A DNA stretch of 62,514 nucleotides from Arsukibacterium sp. UBA3155 (GTDB taxonomy: Bacteria; Pseudomonadota; Gammaproteobacteria; Enterobacterales; Alteromonadaceae), in assembly GCA_002364615.1 (NCBI GenBank), contig DEYP01000023.1:146739-209252 (forward strand). The letters run 5' to 3'. The notes beneath the pieces were generated by a model. That model was not told the origin of the DNA. It searched no databases and saw only the letters and a list, made by a program, of their open reading frames with translations. Of this stretch, positions 669 through 10,286 are shown piece after piece (within the stretch, counting starts at the first letter, position 1; every line of letters starts with the position of its first letter). Both the position numbers and the translations under genes were made by a program.

Positions 669-1154
669 TCAAGCACCAAGCTTTTTAATATACGATATAT
701 GCAGAATAAACCATTCTTTGGGACCACTTGGAGTTTGAACTGTAAATTCATCATCCTCTTGTTTTTTTAGCAGAGCCCGAGCCATAGGTGAATCTATCGA
801 GACGTAATCATTACGTCCATAGATTTCATCAGGGCCGACAATTCGGAATTTTTTAGTTTCACCGTCGGTGTCCTCCACCTCGACCCAAGCTCCAAAATAT
901 ACACGGCCTTCCTGTTGCGGGGAGTAGTCAACAATTTTTAAAACTTCTAATCGCTTTCTAATAAAGCGGATTTTTGAATCAATCTGGCGAAGTAACCTTT
1001 TGTTTTCCTTGTAATCTGCGTTTTCTGAACGGTCACCCAGACTGGCCGCCCATGCAACCTTTTGTGTAATTTCGGGGCGATACTCGCGCCAGAGATAATT
1101 AAGTTCATTCTGCAGTTTTTCATACCCTTCGCGGGTAATGAGGTTTGTTCGCAA
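669..1154 (-). CDS. greB: transcription elongation factor GreB, element-borne copy
   Basis: GreB binds the secondary channel of RNA polymerase and stimulates cleavage of backtracked transcripts. The 161-residue protein is full length and close to E. coli GreB throughout. The N-terminal coiled coil (about 1-75) carries GDRSENADY, which holds the acidic tip residues. The C-terminal FKBP-like domain includes VYFGAWVEVED and SIDSPMARALL. The start is a TTG at 1154, chosen because it aligns exactly with the E. coli start; a weak GAGAG lies about 10 bases upstream. It begins 17 bases after the gmtX stop on the same strand, so it is probably the last gene of the recombinase operon. It is not a recent duplicate of the disrupted host greB at 7538-7885: by eye only about half of the aligned residues match. 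It presumably replaces the host function. Confidence 0.92.
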   Translation of the reverse strand: MRTNLITREGYEKLQNELNYLWREYRPEITQKVAWAASLGDRSENADYKENKRLLRQIDSKIRFIRKRLEVLKIVDYSPQQEGRVYFGAWVEVEDTDGETKKFRIVGPDEIYGRNDYVSIDSPMARALLKKQEDDEFTVQTPSGPKEWFILHISYIKKLGA

Positions 1155-1171
1155 TTTATTGACTCTCGATT

Positions 1172-1792
1172 CTATAAATTTAACATTGCTTTTTTCAAAG
1201 CATCTAAAGTGGCAACCGGAAATACCATTTTTGTTGAATTAGCAGTGACCACACTTGCATCTTTCCCTAGTTCAAAGCCGTTTTCTCGAAGGAATTCATT
1301 TGATAACAGATATTCGAGCGCTTCTCGCTCTAAGTCAGTCAGTTTGATCTTGGAAACGTGAGACGATGCACCATCGTATATTTCTATCACTTGGCTAATT
1401 GGCACTACCTTTTCAAGCAATCTCTCAGCCTCACGTTTTTGTGCATACAAATAATTTATCTGCAACTTTAATACAGGGTCAGTAATACTGTTCATCCATT
1501 CGAAATTTTTACCGGTTTGGTTGGAAGGTTTAGCTTTCGGTTTTACGACGCTATTTTCAAAAGCTCTGATTAGCGTTCGATAAGATTCTCCCGTTTTATT
1601 TCTAATGCTTTGCGCTGCTGGAACACCCCGAGTCTTGCCCAACTGAGCAATGGTTGTATAGCTGAAATCTAAACGACCACTCTGTTGTTGTTCCTTACAA
1701 ACAGCAAAAATAGCGTCAAGCGTTGATTTGCTCCGTTGGGAAGATAGCTTTTTTAACTGCTCTAATACAAGTTCTGGAGTTACTCCGTCCAT
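1172..1792 (-). CDS. gmtX: Gamma-mobile-trio protein GmtX-like (third gene of the recombinase trio)
   Basis: This 206-residue soluble protein has no obvious catalytic motif. It looks largely helical, with a basic central stretch (about 80-95) and a coiled-coil-like segment around 105-125. The N-terminal third, with GKTRGVPAAQSIRNKTG, could be a DNA-binding helical domain, but this is inference. Its ATG overlaps the gmtZ stop by one base (TGATG), so translation is probably coupled. The assignment rests mainly on position: it is the small third gene behind GmtY-like and GmtZ-like recombinases. It may be an accessory or directionality factor. TnpC-like proteins of Tn554-type trios are a looser alternative parallel. 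Confidence 0.75.
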   Translation of the reverse strand: MDGVTPELVLEQLKKLSSQRSKSTLDAIFAVCKEQQQSGRLDFSYTTIAQLGKTRGVPAAQSIRNKTGESYRTLIRAFENSVVKPKAKPSNQTGKNFEWMNSITDPVLKLQINYLYAQKREAERLLEKVVPISQVIEIYDGASSHVSKIKLTDLEREALEYLLSNEFLRENGFELGKDASVVTANSTKMVFPVATLDALKKAMLNL

Positions 1793-4700
1793 CAGACCTC
1801 CTTCAACTTAATCGTCTCTGCAGAGGCAAAAAGTCGTTTTATGTCGGCAGCTTTCAACCTCTCTTCTTCAGGCAAATCTTTAAACGAAAGCTCATTGTCC
1901 ATAAGCCGGTCAAGTTTATTCCAGCTTTTTAGTCGAGTTAGCAGCAACTGCGTGATTTGATTGCCGACTATTAGTTGTTCTTCCTCTGATAAGAACATCA
2001 TCTGTGGCTGCATATCATTAAACTGTAGTAGCCTGTCTATTGCCTGACTTCTAGGCGCCAAAGCAAGGTCATCACTACAGCTTCGAAATAACTCGGCATT
2101 TTCGCAGACTTCGGTTAGTTGGTAGAACCAACTATTATCTTCAATGCTCACGTCCATTGAAAGATCTGATGGAACAATTAGCTGATATGAGTCATTTTCA
2201 GACAATTTACCTTTCTCAATAACTAACTTACATTCTCGGATAAGACGATGTATAGCGTTCATATCAATAAGTAAAGGATCTATTTTCTTAGAGCGCGTTT
2301 CCAGTTCTGAATTGACTAACCGCCTTTTTTCTTGAAGTGAAGCCTTTTCAGCAGTTAGTTGATCGTAGTGCTCTGTAATACGTTTCTCGCTGTATTGCTT
2401 GTGTGAGATAACTTCAATCCTAGTAGTGAGCTCTTGAACCTGAGATTGCAGATTATTGAAGCGCCGGCATTGAGTGGATACATTATGGCTAATTTCATTA
2501 AATAAACTAACCAGACCAACCATGAATGCGGGCCCTGTCACGAAAAATCGACACTGGAGACAGTTCTGTTCACCTAAATATCCAGCTGGTACTGGGTGGT
2601 AAATTGATGACTTAACCGCTACCGGTTCACCACCTTCTTTACAAAAATTTCCGCCTACAGGACAAAACCCATAGTCTTTCCACTGATAAGCAGCTACAGG
2701 TCTATCGTTATTGATAAACTTCAAAAATTCTTCATTATTTGCGACGAGTTCTCCGTGACACTCTTCGATTCTTTTTTGTTCAACAAATTGTCGGAGCGTC
2801 TCTGCTGCAACAGATGCAGCCTGTTTTTCTCCCCGCTGCAGTTTTTCTCGAACATTTAGACCTCCCAAACCGCTTTTTACATAGTAAATTGTCATGACGA
2901 TAGAGGAGTGACCGACGAGTTTTAAAATAATTTCGATAGGTAAACCGAATTCATAGATGTAGGCATTTATTAAACTTACCCGCATTGAATGGGGAGTAAA
3001 ATCTGATTGAAAATTTGAAAGCGACGGTTCGATCAAGTTTAGAGATTGAAACTGCTTAAATTTCATATTGTTATATTTTGCGAGCGATAATTCTTCCCTT
3101 GTAGAAAAAAACAAACTGGCTGCTAAACGCTGTGCTAGCCGACTACCAAATATGCCTGGCTCTTCTTGGCCAAAATCTCGAAATAAGAAACAGTTACGGC
3201 CCTTTTGTTTTTTCTGAATTTCATTAAGTTTGGTTTTAGTGCATTCCATCCATGGCAAAGGCCTTTCAACTTTATTAAAGCGCTGCTGCCATTTTCTTAG
3301 CTTAATGAGCCAGTAAGCTAATTCAACAGGCATAAAGGGTATGGTATATCCCTCGCCATTAAAGCTTGTTTTATTAGTGGTATAATGAACACCAATATCA
3401 TTATCTGATGTTCTATGAATCATACTCTGAGACTTGGTCTGTCCTGCCATGTTCGATTTATTTTGGCACCAAACAACTTTACCATTTTCAAAATCTGGAA
3501 TTTCTCTATCTGCCTCTCCTGAATCGCAATAGATAATTTGTCTACCTCTCGCAGGAAGTTGCATTAATGCATATGTGTAAGTCCAGTATATTGGGAGCCA
3601 TAAATAACGTTTTCCATTGCTCTCTTTAACAACGCAGTCGGGATCTTCTCTATCAATTTCAGAAGACTCATCAAGTGCCACCCAATCTGCACTAAATTTT
3701 TGTAGATGTACAAGATCTCGATAACTAGACTGCCGCTCTATAGCATCAAGAGGAAATATCCAGTCTCGGCCTGCTAAAACGAACTGATAGGGCAGCGATG
3801 GTTTGTTTGTTTCATTGAAGACCGGAGTTGTTGCCTCTTCATTAAAGTTGATCTGCTGAAAAGGATTAATAGCGCCATTAATTTGAGAGACTTCTCCTGT
3901 TTCTTCATCCTCTACAGTTAGAGTATTTTTAATGATCCAATCTAGAAATTCATTTATAGAAAATAACCAACTCTTTTTTCTCGCGATACTGACCCCATCT
4001 AGCAAATCCAACATCGGCTGAATGTTAGTCTTGCTTCGGGTTAAAAAGAGGTGCGGATCTCGCTCAAATCCGCACTTAATTATGTATTCTCTTACGAATT
4101 CGCAAAGATTTTTTTCCTTGCTTTCGCCACCTCTGGCAATTTTTAAAAACTCGCGGATTGATTTACCCCATATCATCCATTTGGGTTCTAAGTACCTTAC
4201 TTTGAACGGTCTAACCCGACCTAAAAAGTCATAAGCATTAGTCCATCCTTTACCAGCATATACTTCTACAGGCCTAGCGGGCACTCTTGGATCAGCAAAA
4301 GCAACCCTCCATTTTTGATAATCAAGCAAAGTTTTTAGCTTAGCATCTGAAACCAGTTCTTTTAATTGAGCAAAAGGATATGGTCGAGAGATATCTAATA
4401 AGTCATAGTAATCCTTCCAACCATCTAATCTCTCAGGATGAGATGGCAGTTGTTTAAATTTTTTTCGGGTTTGTCGATATTGCTTAGAATCTTTTATCTG
4501 GAGAACTTTACAAGCTAACTCCAAAGAAATCAGCGTCTTAATTTCCTTCGGTATCAAGAAAAGCTCCCAACCTCTCCAATCCTTTTTATAATAAACGAGC
4601 GGATCCGCTGGTAAACCTGGATGATGTTTGTAGCAAGTTTTATACTCTTTAGCGGAGGTCATACACAGTTGCTGAACTAGCTGTTTCGCCTCAGCGTAAT

Positions 4701-6102
4701 TTAAATATTTTGCAGTAGATTTTTTGCCAAAAAAGACGGAACCATCTTTCTCATCCTTATATATTATATCTGGTCGTGACGGTAAGCCTGGGCATTCCTT
4801 ATAGCGAGCTTGGTATTCTTTATATGATGTAATCCCCAGTTGCTTTAGGCACAGTTTTGCCTCGGCATAGCTTAGAAAGGCTACAGGTGCCTTTCTAGCT
4901 AGAAACGTCGCCCACCCAGTCCATTCTCCTTGATAAGTTCTTTTAGGGTTAGTCGGTAAGCCGGAGAATTCTTTATAACAGGCATGGTATTCGCGAACCG
5001 AGGTAATGCCTAATTGCTGAACGCGCTTTTGAGCCTCGACGTAGCTTAGAAAAGCTTCAGGAACTTTTTTATCCAGAAATGCTGCCCATCCGGTCCACTC
5101 TCGTTGGTATATTGCGTCAGGGTTGGATGGTAAGCCTAGACACTCTTTATAACGGGCCTGGTACCTTTTTGACGAAGTAATACCTAATTGCCGCACACAT
5201 TGCTGTGCCTCGGAGTAGCTCAGAAAAACGGAAGGGGCTTTTGGTAAGAATTTTGTCCAACCAGTCCACTCACTTTTGTAAACCTTTTGAGGTGTAGCAG
5301 GTAAACCTGCGCACTCCTTATAGCGGCTACTGAATATTTTTGACGAGGTAATGCCCAATTGCTGCACACGCTGTTGGGCCTCACTATAGCTAAGAAAAGC
5401 CGAAGGGGCTTTTGGCAAGAACGCTGTCCATCCGCTCCACTCTGCTCGGTATTTTTTTTCAGGTTCATACGGTAAGCTTGGGTGCTCCCTATACCGTATG
5501 CGGTATTCTCTACTAGAGGTAATGCCTAATTGCTGAACGCGCTTTTGAGCCTCGACGTAGCTTAGAAAAGCTTCAGGAACTTTTTTATTGAAAAAAGCTG
5601 GCCATCCGGCCCATTCACCTTTATAAAATATATCAGGATGAGACGGTAAACCGGGGTAATCCCTATAGCGTCGGCGGTATTCTTTAAAAGAGGCAATGCT
5701 CAATTGCTGCAAGTGTTGCTGTGCCTCGGCATAGCTGAGGAGCGATACAGGTGCTATTCTACCTAGAAAAACGGTCCATCCAATCCACTCTTCTAGATAA
5801 ACTCTGTAAGGATTAGACGGTAAACCCGGGCACTCCTTATAGCGGGTGTTGTACATTTTGGGCGAGGTTATGTCTAACTGCTTTACGCGCTGTTGTGCCT
5901 CAGCGTAGCTTAGAAAAGCTAAAGGAGCTCGTGGTAAGAACCCCTCCCAACCAGCCCACTCGCATTTGTAAGTTCTTGGAGGATTATATGGTAATCCAGA
6001 GCCTTCCTTATAACGGGCTTTATACTCCTTTATCGAGGTAATACCCAGTGATTGAACTATGAGCTGTGCTTCGGCATACCCAATACGCTCTCTTTTTCTC
6101 AT
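1792..6102 (-). CDS. gmtZ: Gamma-mobile-trio integrase GmtZ-like, with nine PHINT repeats
   Basis: This is a 1,436-residue tyrosine recombinase. Residues 7-520 are nine tandem repeats of about 57 residues with the pattern FLSYxEAQxxVQQLGITS, then RYKE, GLPxxP, EWxGW and FL; two degenerate copies follow to about residue 630. They match the phage-integrase repeat (PHINT_rpt) type. The catalytic region is near 840-1075: a probable box-I Arg at 852 or 854, HSMR (H1038, R1041), GHSS (H1065) and TIYY (nucleophile Y1073 or Y1074). The last 350 residues contain Cys clusters (for example NCLQCRFF) and coiled coils. Its ATG overlaps the gmtY stop by four bases. It should act on the element ends with GmtY. 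The repeats could bind DNA, but their role is not shown by sequence alone. Confidence 0.88.
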   Translation of the reverse strand: MRKRERIGYAEAQLIVQSLGITSIKEYKARYKEGSGLPYNPPRTYKCEWAGWEGFLPRAPLAFLSYAEAQQRVKQLDITSPKMYNTRYKECPGLPSNPYRVYLEEWIGWTVFLGRIAPVSLLSYAEAQQHLQQLSIASFKEYRRRYRDYPGLPSHPDIFYKGEWAGWPAFFNKKVPEAFLSYVEAQKRVQQLGITSSREYRIRYREHPSLPYEPEKKYRAEWSGWTAFLPKAPSAFLSYSEAQQRVQQLGITSSKIFSSRYKECAGLPATPQKVYKSEWTGWTKFLPKAPSVFLSYSEAQQCVRQLGITSSKRYQARYKECLGLPSNPDAIYQREWTGWAAFLDKKVPEAFLSYVEAQKRVQQLGITSVREYHACYKEFSGLPTNPKRTYQGEWTGWATFLARKAPVAFLSYAEAKLCLKQLGITSYKEYQARYKECPGLPSRPDIIYKDEKDGSVFFGKKSTAKYLNYAEAKQLVQQLCMTSAKEYKTCYKHHPGLPADPLVYYKKDWRGWELFLIPKEIKTLISLELACKVLQIKDSKQYRQTRKKFKQLPSHPERLDGWKDYYDLLDISRPYPFAQLKELVSDAKLKTLLDYQKWRVAFADPRVPARPVEVYAGKGWTNAYDFLGRVRPFKVRYLEPKWMIWGKSIREFLKIARGGESKEKNLCEFVREYIIKCGFERDPHLFLTRSKTNIQPMLDLLDGVSIARKKSWLFSINEFLDWIIKNTLTVEDEETGEVSQINGAINPFQQINFNEEATTPVFNETNKPSLPYQFVLAGRDWIFPLDAIERQSSYRDLVHLQKFSADWVALDESSEIDREDPDCVVKESNGKRYLWLPIYWTYTYALMQLPARGRQIIYCDSGEADREIPDFENGKVVWCQNKSNMAGQTKSQSMIHRTSDNDIGVHYTTNKTSFNGEGYTIPFMPVELAYWLIKLRKWQQRFNKVERPLPWMECTKTKLNEIQKKQKGRNCFLFRDFGQEEPGIFGSRLAQRLAASLFFSTREELSLAKYNNMKFKQFQSLNLIEPSLSNFQSDFTPHSMRVSLINAYIYEFGLPIEIILKLVGHSSIVMTIYYVKSGLGGLNVREKLQRGEKQAASVAAETLRQFVEQKRIEECHGELVANNEEFLKFINNDRPVAAYQWKDYGFCPVGGNFCKEGGEPVAVKSSIYHPVPAGYLGEQNCLQCRFFVTGPAFMVGLVSLFNEISHNVSTQCRRFNNLQSQVQELTTRIEVISHKQYSEKRITEHYDQLTAEKASLQEKRRLVNSELETRSKKIDPLLIDMNAIHRLIRECKLVIEKGKLSENDSYQLIVPSDLSMDVSIEDNSWFYQLTEVCENAELFRSCSDDLALAPRSQAIDRLLQFNDMQPQMMFLSEEEQLIVGNQITQLLLTRLKSWNKLDRLMDNELSFKDLPEEERLKAADIKRLFASAETIKLKEV
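4543..6084 (-). repeat. nine tandem ~171-bp coding repeats (PHINT-type) in gmtZ
   Basis: Nine in-frame repeats encode about 57 residues each, with conserved SYxEAQ, LGITS, YxxRYKE, GLP and EWxGWxxFL blocks. Repeats 4 to 7 are the most alike, and the nucleotide sequence repeats visibly too: the stretch encoding the end of one repeat and start of the next near 5025-5060 recurs near 5525-5560. This suggests past expansion by unequal recombination within the gene. The repeat at about residues 409-462 has lost the EWxGW tryptophans (reads EKDGSVFF). Confidence 0.88.
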
Positions 6103-7400
6103 AGACCTAACTCACGAAGTTTAGCCCTAATTTCACTATCTCGAGGTTTTATGTAAACACGGGAACTATCGGGACTTTTGTGATGCATGGCTTTTGAAAT
6201 TTCGCTTAGATTAAAACCTGCTTCAGCCAACCGATAACCAAATGAGTGCCGATGACTGTGGGGACTTCCACCAACGTGCTTGCCAATCTCCAATCCAACG
6301 GTAGACAAAGCATTTTGATATTTTTTGATAAAGTTCTTTCTCGACTCTGGCTGACCGACGTAATTGGTAAACAAGTAGGGATGATCAGTGCTAGAACGCT
6401 GATACAAATATAGCTGTAAAAGTTTTGCAAATTCTCTTGCAGCAGATAATGGATAGAAAAACACACTAAACGAAAGATCTCGGTTGGTTAGTAGTGGACT
6501 TTTCCAACCCGAATATAGTCGGTGGGTTCGAGGATATTCATTTCTGGGTTTGAGCCCATATCTGATATTTAAGAGTTCTCTTCTCGTTGAAAATGCGGGA
6601 TCAGGGCTTTTACCTGCACTTGGATGAAAAACTTTGACCAAGGCATGTCCGGTTTTTCTATCAATACTGATATCCGATGTATAAATATGAAAGCATTCAG
6701 ATAGCCTTAGTCCGCCAAAGTGCATTAAAAATACGATCAACTGACTGGCATAGTCAGAATCGTTTATCGTTCGACGGAATCCATTTATTAAGAAATTTTT
6801 AAATTCGGATTCTGGAAATCTATATACAGACTCTACTGCCAAAAGCTCCCTGGATGGCGGTTCAATAACCCTGGTTTTAGTAAATTGGAATTTGCTATGC
6901 TTACTCAAGTGATTCAAAAAAGCGCTCGAAGCACGTTTATAGTAAGCGCACCATAAAAGCTTTTCCTCTACGTAGGTGGTTTTACGAAGGGGGCTTAGTT
7001 TTGGCAACCCAGTACCGTGCTGGCTATCTAAATAATCACAATAACGATTTATTAAACTTAATAAAAAGCTCACGTCATCGCTTGATCGTGGCCGCCAAAA
7101 AAGACCAGAAGCATCCTCATTGTTAGAGTCAAGAGTACCAAAACAAATTGCATCAACAAATGCTTGAAGTAAGGCAGTACCTGAGATGGCATCATCCGAC
7201 TTAAACAGTAGAAATCTTAAAAGCAGTTCTGCTGCGAAAACACAACGTTCCTGCCAAGACTGAGATTTTCTTCTGTTCAGATAAATAAATCTTAGAAGAG
7301 ATATCAATACACCTTGCTCTGTAAACAAGGCTTGTACAGCAATTACGTTTGAATACGAATTCGCTGAGTATCTGACTTGACGCTTTATCACATAATCCAA
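6099..7400 (-). CDS. gmtY: Gamma-mobile-trio tyrosine recombinase GmtY-like
   Basis: The protein has 433 residues and a complete tyrosine-recombinase catalytic set: box-I Arg in FGGLRLSE (R232), HSHR (H381, R384), a late His in AMHHKSP (H406/H407), and the nucleophile in RVYIKP (Y416). The N-terminal half is a divergent core-binding domain. It is the first gene of the minus-strand trio and is transcribed away from the greB junction, about 140 bases from it. The start is uncertain: TTG at 7400 gives the longest product, while GTG at 7391 has a GGA five bases upstream. It overlaps gmtZ by four bases. It should cut and join the element ends. RIT or Tn554-type trio recombinases are the nearest alternative label. 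Confidence 0.87.
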   Translation of the reverse strand: MDYVIKRQVRYSANSYSNVIAVQALFTEQGVLISLLRFIYLNRRKSQSWQERCVFAAELLLRFLLFKSDDAISGTALLQAFVDAICFGTLDSNNEDASGLFWRPRSSDDVSFLLSLINRYCDYLDSQHGTGLPKLSPLRKTTYVEEKLLWCAYYKRASSAFLNHLSKHSKFQFTKTRVIEPPSRELLAVESVYRFPESEFKNFLINGFRRTINDSDYASQLIVFLMHFGGLRLSECFHIYTSDISIDRKTGHALVKVFHPSAGKSPDPAFSTRRELLNIRYGLKPRNEYPRTHRLYSGWKSPLLTNRDLSFSVFFYPLSAAREFAKLLQLYLYQRSSTDHPYLFTNYVGQPESRKNFIKKYQNALSTVGLEIGKHVGGSPHSHRHSFGYRLAEAGFNLSEISKAMHHKSPDSSRVYIKPRDSEIRAKLRELGL

Positions 7401-7508
7401 AAGGATATCTCTGTGATTTAGTATCTATAGTATTTAGTTAATAGATCTAAGTTTGTCAATTTAATTAACTCGTCTACTGAATTTGACTCTAAAGAGGGAT
7501 TATCTGCT

Positions 7509-7539
7509 TATTAGTATGTGGAATTGGGTGGTACTAATA
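7509..7539. other. probable right end / recombination site of the greB island
   Basis: An 8-base perfect inverted repeat, TATTAGTA (7509-7516) and TACTAATA (7532-7539), is separated by 15 bases. The second arm reaches the point where the greB coding homology resumes (TAT codon at 7538). Paired arms around a short spacer are typical of tyrosine-recombinase core sites, so this is my candidate attachment site. The spacer is longer than the usual 6-8 bases, so the true core may be offset. The left-end partner is outside the window. Confidence 0.5.
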
Positions 7540-7885
7540 TATTTACGGCAAAAAACGCCTACGTGAGATTGATAGACGGGTCCGCTTTTTAACCAAGCGC
7601 CTGGAACAGCTGCAGGTGGTATACCCGTCCGCCAAGCAACAGGGCAAAGTGTATTTCGGTGCCTGGGTGCAGCTGGAAGATGAGGCTGGTCAGCTAAAGC
7701 ATTACCGCTTGGTGGGTCCGGACGAGTTTGATTTAAGGGTTAATAAGCTAAGTATTGACTCGCCTCTGGCCAGAGCGCTCCTTGGCAAAATGGCAGATGA
7801 TGAAATTCAGGTGAGCACACCTACGGGTAACCATTGGTATACAATAACTGCCGTGAGCTACCAACCCTTCGCGGAGTTAAATTAA
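7538..7885 (+). pseudogene. greB: host greB, 5'-truncated by island insertion
   Basis: An open frame of 115 codons encodes the last two-thirds of GreB, starting at YIYGKKRLREIDRR and running through VYFGAWV and SIDSPLARALL to the natural stop. The initiation codon, the N-terminal coiled coil and the acidic tip are missing. The codon just before the homology is TAA (7535-7537), where intact GreB has Asp-Tyr. The remaining codons show no frameshift or stop, which suggests a recent or reversible disruption. The missing 5' part is expected on the far left side of the island. A GTG at 7616 could in principle start a C-terminal fragment, but no good ribosome site precedes it. The gene lies upstream of ompR–envZ, the conserved chromosomal location of greB. 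Confidence 0.88.
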
Positions 7886-8212: not shown

Positions 8213-8247
8213 GTTTATAGTAAAAAAAAACAACGGAAGCTTGTGTG

Positions 8248-8973
8248 ATGACCAGCCAGGAAACCCTGAAAATTATTGTGGTAGATGATGATTTACGTTT
8301 GCGTGCGTTACTGGAACGCTATTTGGTTGAACAAGGCTATCAGGTCCGCAGTGTCGGTAACTATGAACAAATGCAACGGCTGATGGAGCGCGAACATTTC
8401 CATCTGGTGGTGCTGGATTTAATGCTCCCTGGTGAAGATGGCCTGTCTATTTGCCGCAAGCTACGCCAGCAGAATAATGATGTGCCGATTATTATGTTAA
8501 CCGCAAAAGGTGATGAAGTTGACCGGATTATCGGTCTTGAAATGGGCGCAGACGACTACTTACCTAAGCCTTTTAATCCGCGTGAGTTGCTGGCGCGGAT
8601 CCGCGCTGTACTGCGGCGAAAAAGCAAAGATTTACCCGGTGCACCTTCGCAGGAAGAAACCGTCATCAGTTTTGGTCCTTTTACCTTTAACTTAGCAACC
8701 CGTGAGATGCGCAAAGGTGACGAACCATTGCCTCTGACCAGTGGCGAGTATGCGGTACTGAAAGTGCTGGTTAGCCATCCACGTGAGCCATTATCACGCG
8801 ATAAACTGATGAATCAGGCCAGAGGACGCGACTATTCAGCGATGGAGCGTAGTATTGATGTTCAGGTATCCCGTCTAAGGCGCATGCTGGAAGACGATGC
8901 TGCTAACCCGCGCTATATTCAAACCGTATGGGGGCTGGGTTATGTGTTTGTGCCAGATGGCAGTATTGCCTGA
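8248..8973 (+). CDS. ompR: two-component response regulator OmpR
   Basis: OmpR receives phosphate from EnvZ and controls porin and osmotic-stress genes. The 241-residue protein matches E. coli OmpR end to end. The receiver domain (1-120) has IIVVDDD, phospho-acceptor Asp in [10 protein letters not shown], and Lys in PKPFNPREL. The winged-helix domain (about 135-238) ends in [19 protein letters not shown] 8248 is preferred over GTG 8245 because GGAAG lies eight bases upstream of it. The stop overlaps the envZ ATG by one base (TGATG). Confidence 0.97.
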
Positions 8974-10286
8974 TGCGTTTGTTACCCCGCAGCGCGTTTG
9001 GGCAAACGGTATTTTTGATCGGCTTTTTATTGCTGATTAATCAGCTGGTATCTTATGTATCAGTGGCGCTTTACTTTATTAAGCCTACCACCCAGCAAAT
9101 TAACCATCTTATTGCCAAACAAATTAAAGTGGTGTTTCTTGATGCTGGCCAGAATACTCCGGTGTTGTCTGCAGAACTGACCCGCCGCTTTAGCGAGGCC
9201 ACGGGAATTGAGGTATACACCGAAGCTGAAGCGATGCAGCAAGGGCTGGCTAACGCGCGGTATTATGGTTATTTTTCAGAGCAAATGTCAGCTGAGCTCG
9301 GAGGTGAGGCCGAAGTTCGTATCGAACAGGGTAATGCGTTTGCTTTCTGGGTGCAGCCACCACAAGCACCACAATATTGGGTCAAAGTACCTTTGTCCGG
9401 GCTGGATGAAACCGATTTTTCACCCCTGACGTTCTATTTGTTGTTAATTGGTATTTTGAGCGTGGGCGGTGCCTGGGTTTTTGCCCGTCATTTAAACCGA
9501 CCGCTTAAATCACTGCAGCAAGCCGCCCTGCAAGTGGGGCGTGGTGATATTCCACCACCATTAAATGCCGAAAAAGGGTCTACCGAAATTATTTCAGTGA
9601 TCCGCGCTTTTAACTATATGGCGGAAGGCATTAAGCGCCTTGAACAAGACCGGGCGTTATTAATGGCCGGGGTATCGCATGATTTGCGCACACCGCTTAC
9701 CCGCATTCGCCTGGCATCAGAAATGATGACGGAGCAGGATAGCTGGATCCGCGATGGTATCATCAACGATATTGATGATATGAACGCCATTATCGATCAG
9801 TTTATCGATTTTCTGCGCCACCATAAGCAGGAAAGTTTGCAAAGTGTTAATTTAAACGAATTAATAGAAGAATTGGTATTGGCAGAGCAGGTGCAGCAGC
9901 GTCATTTTATTACCGAGCTTGATCCGAAATTACCGGCAGTGCTGTTGCGTAAAATAGCCATTAAGCGGGTGCTAAATAACCTCCTGGAAAATGCGTTGCG
10001 TTATAGTGATGGCGACATTGAAATTAGCACGGGTTACGAAAAAAACCGTAAACAGCTGTATCTCGAAGTGCGTGACCATGGACCGGGTATTCCTGAGCAT
10101 AAGATGGAGGCCATGTTTGCGCCTTTTACCCAGGGCGATGAAGCCAGGGGCAGTGGGGGATCCGGTTTAGGCCTGGCCATTATCAAAAAAATTGTCGATA
10201 TGCACCAAGGCAGCGTCAGTTTGTTCAATCATGCTCATGGTGGGCTGGTAGTCAGGGTGTTTTTACCTATAAAAGCGCTGGTTTAG
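8973..10286 (+). CDS. envZ: osmosensor histidine kinase EnvZ
   Basis: This inner-membrane kinase/phosphatase acts on OmpR. It has 437 residues (E. coli EnvZ has 450). TM1 is near residues 10-35, a periplasmic sensor segment follows, TM2 is at about 150-170, and a HAMP domain at 170-225. The H-box is [20 protein letters not shown], followed by an N-box ([13 protein letters not shown]), DHGPGIP and [12 protein letters not shown]. The ATG at 8973 overlaps the ompR stop and gives the normal EnvZ N-terminus ([12 protein letters not shown]); a longer frame from 8928 lies inside ompR and is not used. No terminator is visible just downstream. Confidence 0.96.

Follow-up and report, generated by a model that had tools for sequence, protein, structure and literature searches.

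Gamma-mobile-trio (GMT) islands were reportedly described by Mahata et al. 2024 (Nat Microbiol 9:3268). Here, we analyzed a GMT island located within greB in a 62,514-nt stretch of DNA (the window) from Arsukibacterium sp. UBA3155 (GCA_002364615.1; contig DEYP01000023.1, positions 146,739-209,252, forward strand). In this island, the genes gmtY, gmtZ and gmtX are followed by a complete greB, referred to below as the cargo copy. At the level of sequence, insertion site, cargo greB and loss of the host greB were found to be tightly linked across many genera, with co-divergence of trio and cargo and with purifying selection. The explanation that we favor, and consider highly probable, is a greB-specific GMT lineage in which greB has become the fourth core gene, keeping the cost of insertion low.

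In PMC12715929, GMT islands are presented as carriers of offensive and defensive tools. The island analyzed here shares with them its large size, a GmtY, GmtZ and GmtX set lying side by side and scoring above the NCBIfam cut-offs, and a clean insertion relative to the empty greB site of a relative (G126). The defensive and offensive cargo is likewise shared: between the two greB pieces we identified a CBASS-type (cyclic-oligonucleotide-based antiphage signaling system) cyclase with a 2TM-SAVED effector, a capP-like peptidase, a type I restriction set (R, S and M), a nuclease/immunity-like pair made up of an AHH nuclease and, after it, an Imm11-like protein (just below its cut-off), and an Xre/MbcA/ParS-type antitoxin. 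It differs from them in that greB is the fourth gene of the run and in having a fixed coding target, greB itself.

Many integrating elements occupy gene ends or RNA genes and so leave their target unharmed. The SXT/R391 integrative and conjugative elements insert at the 5' end of prfC (PMC4344509), and integration of SXT is said to restore a functional prfC (PMC12210918). The greB lineage resembles them in that entry is site-specific and hits a conserved expression-machinery gene, the function of which is retained or, in the case of greB, would be retained. However, whereas SXT rebuilds prfC, the greB lineage leaves the host gene broken mid-way and carries a whole divergent gene. A mid-gene site in a conserved gene is thereby combined with a complete divergent replacement inside the recombinase run, across a wide gammaproteobacterial range.

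With regard to integration, Tn916 has a 6-bp variable coupling sequence at one end, which is derived from the donor, and enters many sites (both according to PMC12084037). GInt islands (ginABCD) possess four gin genes and flanking imperfect direct repeats of 10-17 nt; the accessible sections of PMC5385486 also propose staggered cuts of 6-7 nt for them and do not describe carriage of the target gene. As judged from titles and the beginnings of abstracts, with the original GMT description outside this scope, no treatment of greB together with islands, integrases, recombinases or GMT was found in the literature. The word greB was also absent from papers citing GMT, as far as these were checked, which does not show that the link is unpublished.

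The island and the two halves of host greB

The features of the locus are given below. Codon and residue numbers of greB are those of the cargo GreB throughout; G000 denotes the window's own genome (3.89 Mb, 30 contigs) and C1 the contig holding both host greB pieces.

669..1154, minus strand: complete cargo greB at the end of the gmtY-Z-X-greB run, 161 aa, start codon TTG (TIGR01461, 247 bits, cut-off 171)
1172..1792, minus strand: gmtX, gamma-mobile-trio protein (NCBIfam NF040692, 196 bits, cut-off 40)
1792..6102, minus strand: gmtZ, gamma-mobile-trio integrase with repeat units at the N-terminus (NF047926, 696 bits, cut-off 600; Pfam Integrase_2 and INT_rpt)
6099..7400, minus strand: gmtY, gamma-mobile-trio tyrosine recombinase (NF040693, 436 bits, cut-off 340; Pfam Phage_integrase)
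7511..7537, no strand assigned: right end of the island, imperfect terminal inverted repeat TTAGTATG...GGTACTAA (right ends of greB-type islands compared by eye)
7538..7885, plus strand: host greB from codon 48 to the stop codon, its 3' fragment (GreB profile positions 48-155; empty-site alignment)
~G000:C1:119960-120102, plus strand, outside the window: 5' part of host greB, up to codon 47
8245..8973, plus strand: host ompR, right chromosomal flank of greB (98.7% identity to the OmpR beside the intact greB of sister G126)
8928..10286, plus strand: host envZ, right chromosomal flank (88.5% identity over the stretch visible in sister G126)

A preliminary description of this DNA had reported a minus-strand recombinase trio with a complete greB 17 bases behind gmtX, and a plus-strand greB fragment without its start. 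In line with this, all four genes passed their NCBIfam cut-offs, the gmtX-greB gap was 17 bases and the trio genes overlapped or abutted. The fragment at 7538-7885 scored below the GreB cut-off, its profile match starting at position 48 and covering only positions 48-155. The cargo GreB retained the GDRSENADY motif. Cargo and host fragment, which had been said to differ at about half of their residues, were 51.9% identical over residues 48-155. This value rules out a duplicate made at insertion and, together with distances that follow those of GmtX (see below), agrees with the description's claim that the cargo copy is old.

The same description held that the island breaks host greB while bringing a complete copy, and the second half of the host gene was indeed located. 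A tblastn search placed the 5' piece at C1:119965-120108(+), on the same contig and 34 kb upstream of the 3' piece. It has tex on its left and the island on its right, and ompR-envZ lies beyond the 3' piece. The break in host greB falls between codons 47 and 48, and the island spans approximately C1:120103-154275 (34 kb); the window region 669-7885 is only its right end, and the remainder lies beyond the window's left edge. When searched against its own genome, the cargo GreB gave four matches only, namely itself, the 3' piece, the 5' piece and GreA on another contig. This whole-genome search revealed no further intact greB in G000, in which the cargo is the sole full-length GreB.

In the sister genome G126, which belongs to the same genus, greB is uninterrupted between tex (92.5% identical) and ompR (98.7%). 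The host flanks of G000 aligned end to end with this empty site, with no host bases lost or repeated and one ambiguous base at the break. An intact greB in sister strains, which the preliminary description had named as a check, was the rule in the genus: full-length greB was present in 22 of the 24 same-genus genomes searched, split in G303 and not visible in G306 (200 contigs).

Distribution and insertion site of greB-type islands

To define how widespread the arrangement is, the GmtX profile was searched in 295 genomes of the family, 26 of which scored above the cut-off. The first scan for greB took in loci within 1.5 kb of gmtX, some of them at contig ends, and a genome-wide search covered the remainder. 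A greB was located behind gmtX in five of the 26 genomes (G000, G083, G167, G206 and G208); in all five, host greB was split at residue 47/48 and no other full-length GreB was found. In the other 21 genomes, whose GMTs lack greB behind gmtX, one full-length GreB was present in 20, and none was visible in G080 (800 contigs). If genomes are taken as independent, the partition into 5 split and 20 intact has a chance of 1 in 53,130. In a class-wide sample of 369 genomes, GMT was detected in four, three of them with greB behind gmtX (G000, G471 and G674); G471 seems to be the genome of locus L161.

A collection of genome contigs was also scanned with the greB-type GmtX, which yielded 39 loci, 37 with greB, a proportion that is not a frequency given the query employed. 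In the other two (L156 and L164), the trio was present without greB. With L100, L096 and L098 dropped as the same genomes as L132, L157 and L160, the set comprised 41 distinct loci: these 37, those of G000, G303 and G208, and one contig from a viral collection. The record names include Vibrio, Photobacterium, Enterovibrio, Shewanella, Acinetobacter, Marinobacter, Pseudoalteromonas, Salinimonas, Rheinheimera, Ignatzschineria, Wohlfahrtiimonas, Methyloprofundus and others. The viral-collection contig (L165, from IMG/VR) is probably a bacterial island filed among viral contigs and not a virus. A search of plasmids returned 47 records with GmtX relatives, all under 60% identity.

In 37 of the 41 loci, the GmtX and GreB matches lay on one strand and were separated by no more than 34 nt (end of the former to start of the latter). 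The exceptions were L157 (447 nt, with a second gmtX tail inside), L162 (74 nt), L163 (349 nt, with a partial GmtX match) and L158, where greB lies about 2.3 kb away on the other strand. A 3' fragment of host greB was found at the same locus in 31 of 41 cases and on another contig in seven more (38/41); it was not found for L142 (a metagenome-assembled genome) or L162 (decayed), and L165 is cut off. Whole-genome GreB searches covered 39 loci, all except L129 and L165, and the cargo was the only full-length GreB in 37 of these 39 genomes. The two exceptions were G339, with a further 41% match that is maybe GreA-like, and G303, without any full-length GreB. Cargo positions agreed with the whole-genome matches in 33/33 cases. 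In the 22 genomes with both host pieces on one contig, island length ranged from 11.7 to 48.2 kb (median 16.3 kb). In many hosts, GreB would therefore be supplied by a mobile island, for which annotation and GreB phylogenies in these genera should allow.

Next to the recurrence of greB behind gmtX, the preliminary description had raised the question of whether such loci sit in greB at the same codon. We read 36 left junctions, and in 35 of them host greB breaks after codon 47 (GAY or GAR), followed by a variable spacer of approximately 6 nt and an imperfect inverted repeat. This repeat resembles TTATAACCCC in one subclade and TTAGTACCAC in the other, with an inner ATACT in both. L162, which is decayed, had no readable left junction, and for L138 a spacer length of either 6 or 7 nt is compatible with the sequence. 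On the right, host codon 48 (usually TAY) directly adjoins the mirrored repeat (30 distinct junctions, six more and G083), except that a foreign hexamer comes first in L137 and the repeat deviates in G329. The objection of trio neighbors without greB at other sites, which had been named in advance, did not hold: greB-followed relatives of gmtX were found in greB at the same codon, and in the family sample a GMT lacking greB went with an unbroken host gene. The insertion point lies directly behind the conserved GDRSENAD motif; codon 47 comes after residues 41 and 44, which we take to be the acidic tip residues of the Gre coiled coil.

The left spacers comprised 34 different sequences among 35. 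In L143, L144 and L161 the left spacer equals the target hexamer, while L137 has a target-like hexamer on the left and a foreign one on the right. This pattern matches the prediction of a Tn916-like coupling mechanism, the shared trait being, as a sequence pattern only, a coupling-type 6-nt sequence at one end that is usually unlike the target. GmtY and GmtZ would make cuts staggered by 6 nt between the strands, the exchange of DNA would need no homology, as in Tn916, and the 6-nt coupling sequence would move with the element. Since two whole codons would be exchanged, precise excision should leave greB in frame. The likeness is claimed for the way of working and not for family membership, and in contrast to the many sites entered by Tn916, the greB lineage uses one codon junction. 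With GInts, the greB islands share several recombinase genes at one island end, variable cargo and the short stagger proposed for the former; unlike the GInts as far as these are described, they carry the target gene. No GInt-like direct repeats of 10-17 nt were seen by eye at the greB-island junctions.

Divergence of the cargo GreB and competing explanations

Conservation of the cargo copy was examined firstly at the tip. Residue 41 was Asp in 41/41 cargo copies, and residue 44 was Glu in 39 and Asp in two. Among cargo copies, the median ratio of non-synonymous to synonymous differences (pN/pS) over residues 48-155 was 0.10 for the 36 pairs from Acinetobacter and 0.09 both for the 28 pairs from Vibrio and relatives and for the 21 pairs from Shewanella, by which measure the cargo greB is under purifying selection. 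Host fragments (30 used; L165, which has an internal stop, and the fragment of L138 were left out) contained no internal stop in 30/30 cases and also had low pN/pS values (0.09, 0.15 and 0.23), so pN/pS by itself cannot separate cargo from fragment. These stop-free fragments with low pN/pS suggest that most greB breaks are recent relative to the age of the cargo lineage.

Protein distances were then compared by Mantel tests on 38 of the 41 loci, leaving out L165 and loci with a short or stop-holding GmtX match; 30 of them had both greB copies. GmtX and cargo GreB distances were correlated with r 0.79 in the 38 loci and r 0.81 in the 30 (0/2000 permutations as high). With the host fragment held constant, the correlation was 0.75, while that between GmtX and host fragment was -0.11 with the cargo held constant. 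Judged by these distances, divergence of the cargo GreB tracks that of the trio.

The preliminary description had expected a tree to separate cargo from chromosomal GreB. Our tree (residues 48-155, 121 rows, 110 columns, without L165) bore this out in part: cargo labels were clustered far beyond shuffles (12 label changes vs. 33.7 for shuffled labels), but separation of cargo and host was partial, with a few hosts mixed in and weak resolution. SH-aLRT support was 100 for a group of 16 rows, made up of 14 cargo copies (Acinetobacter and Ignatzschineriaceae) and two host fragments, and likewise for a group of nine Acinetobacter host fragments; the window's host fragment paired with G126 (89). 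The P. distincta locus (L157, L096; G167) looks chimeric, in that a trio of one subclade is followed by a partial second gmtX and a greB nearer to that of the window and the other subclade. It is probable that, on occasion, cargo and host copies exchange sequence or copies are recruited from relatives.

Two candidate explanations for details of the cargo were tried and rejected. Protection of the cargo by a recoded target site does not apply, as GDRS[ED]NADY is kept in 41/41 cargo copies and split host copies use both types of Ser43 codon. Entry of a second island into an older cargo greB, considered for the cargo-like host fragments described below, was discarded because no gmtX was found in the 1.8-3.4 kb upstream of the 5' piece (L140, L154, G343 and G326). 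Separately, the Ser43 codon was TCN in 41/41 cargo copies, vs. AGY in 26 of 50 intact chromosomal copies.

In the greB-specific lineage that we propose, insertion would abolish host GreB, and GreB would then be made from the trio transcript or from a promoter inside gmtX. A promoter-like match at 1198-1169 (end of gmtX, before greB) is no evidence for the latter, given 8 matches in the scan vs. 16.8 in shuffles. The carried greB would lower the cost of occupying a highly conserved gene, and probably spares the host the loss of that gene; such compensation is what we infer from the association of site, cargo and host greB loss.

Several observations weigh against this explanation. Under laboratory conditions, E. 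coli is viable when it lacks greB, and the cost that would be compensated is thus an assumption. In G303, where gmtY is interrupted, no full-length GreB is left because the cargo copy is frameshifted near residue 130. The tree does not join the cargo copies into one clade, and in four loci (L127, L140, L146 and L154) the broken host copy is 82-93% identical to the cargo, which simple old co-inheritance would not predict. Finally, GMTs in radC-, radical-SAM- and qmcA-like genes and in the ATPase gene of G162/G359 carry no replacement.

A related possibility is that the island holds the only greB of the host, so that its deletion or decay is selected against. This could act together with compensation, and we regard it as a possible contribution that we nevertheless lean against. 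The cargo being the sole full-length GreB in nearly all genomes searched whole, and its pN/pS of 0.09-0.10, would fit such a hold on the host. However, precise excision should restore host greB in frame, as the junctions indicate, leaving excision itself unpunished, and G303 persists with no full-length GreB. A more comprehensive version of the favored explanation includes this element: an old, self-compensating GMT lineage would have greB as its obligate fourth core gene, cut behind the catalytic-tip motif, replace the whole gene from its recombinase run, hold the sole GreB hostage and make GreB element-borne and horizontally replaced in many gammaproteobacteria, with genome G264 (see below) suggesting a second such lineage. 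We put this version forward tentatively, with slightly more doubt than belief.

The cargo GreB might instead have a job of its own, in host or phage transcription or in helping to transcribe the long gmtZ, with the match to the target being secondary. The location of greB within the recombinase run and not among the loose cargo, and the richness of the window's island in phage-defense genes (CBASS, type I restriction), would be in keeping with this. Yet no second full-length GreB turned up in any of the 21 GMT genomes above the cut-off whose gmtX is not followed by greB, so the only genomes seen with an added GreB are those with a broken greB. At loci L157 and L158, moreover, the cargo greB is unusual in position or kind and GreB is present nonetheless. 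We therefore consider this explanation unlikely, and an element-specific GreB variant affecting host or phage transcription, which the preliminary description had offered as an alternative, found no support here.

Somewhat less probable still is that the cargo greB arose from host greB by recombination, during insertion or later, and is a passenger with no lasting tie to the element. The four loci with cargo-like host copies, the second gmtX tail and window-like greB behind an other-subclade trio in P. distincta, and the failure of the cargo copies to form one clade are what such a passenger would leave. Against it stand the tracking of GmtX by cargo distances, with a host-fragment correlation near nil once the cargo is accounted for, and the identities between own cargo and own host copy, which are only 45-76% in 25 of 30 loci. 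An assembly error or chance pairing of two greB pieces, which the preliminary description had named as an objection to the fragment at 7538, has a negligible probability, since all pieces lie on one contig in G000 and an identical split was met in about 38 further records, several of which are complete or consist of one to two contigs (G208, G303, L126, L130 and L149).

Other GMT lineages and their targets

To place the greB lineage in context, 20 other GMT loci were read upstream of gmtY (L120 and L164 look like one genome); L121 and L125 were unreadable, and the sites of L116 and L118 were not identified. By eye, with target gene names judged from translations, sites were located next to SRP-RNA-like sequence (signal recognition particle RNA; L115 and L117), between genes (e.g., L106-L112), or within genes resembling radC, qmcA, a radical-SAM gene, a mechanosensitive-channel-like gene (L156) and a gene for a MoxR-type ATPase. 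One GMT of another clade, in G264 (L123), splits a gene for a MoxR-type AAA+ ATPase, and its island carries a full ATPase gene together with the following VWA-like gene; NCBIfam gave no family above cut-off for either the ATPase or the VWA-like protein.

Elsewhere, searches for a replacement copy were negative. For radC, there was one match only in G259 and in G263, with no second copy (the frame in G263 is not shown to be broken), and the radical-SAM piece of G224 gave a single match with no second copy. Only the two halves of the ATPase gene were found in G162/G359, which look like one genome held twice, and qmcA of G033 had no second close copy, with five weak matches of 22-35%. The proposal that every GMT carries its target was therefore rejected, G264 being the only one of these cases with a copy. 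As GMTs occupy these genes without a replacement, GMT insertion does not generally require one: carriage of the target is almost constant in the greB lineage, occurs once more in G264 and is no rule for GMTs. The greB lineage makes the limits on an element's choice of target testable, for which the GMTs in radC-, qmcA- and radical-SAM-like genes without a copy provide a ready comparison.

Three minor observations were made along the way. G000 itself contains a second GMT trio at C15:54884-55528 (L008, L106), which belongs to another clade and apparently lies between genes; no greB was found within the 4.9 kb read behind its gmtX. In G224 (L114), the GMT sits in the radical-SAM-like gene right at the CxxxCxxC motif, and some GMTs may favor codons of conserved motifs. 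Lastly, in G299 (L045), an extra C-terminal piece of greB is located at C42:79149-79238, 2 kb behind an intact greB and with tex not in its usual place, perhaps reflecting another element that uses the 3' end of greB.

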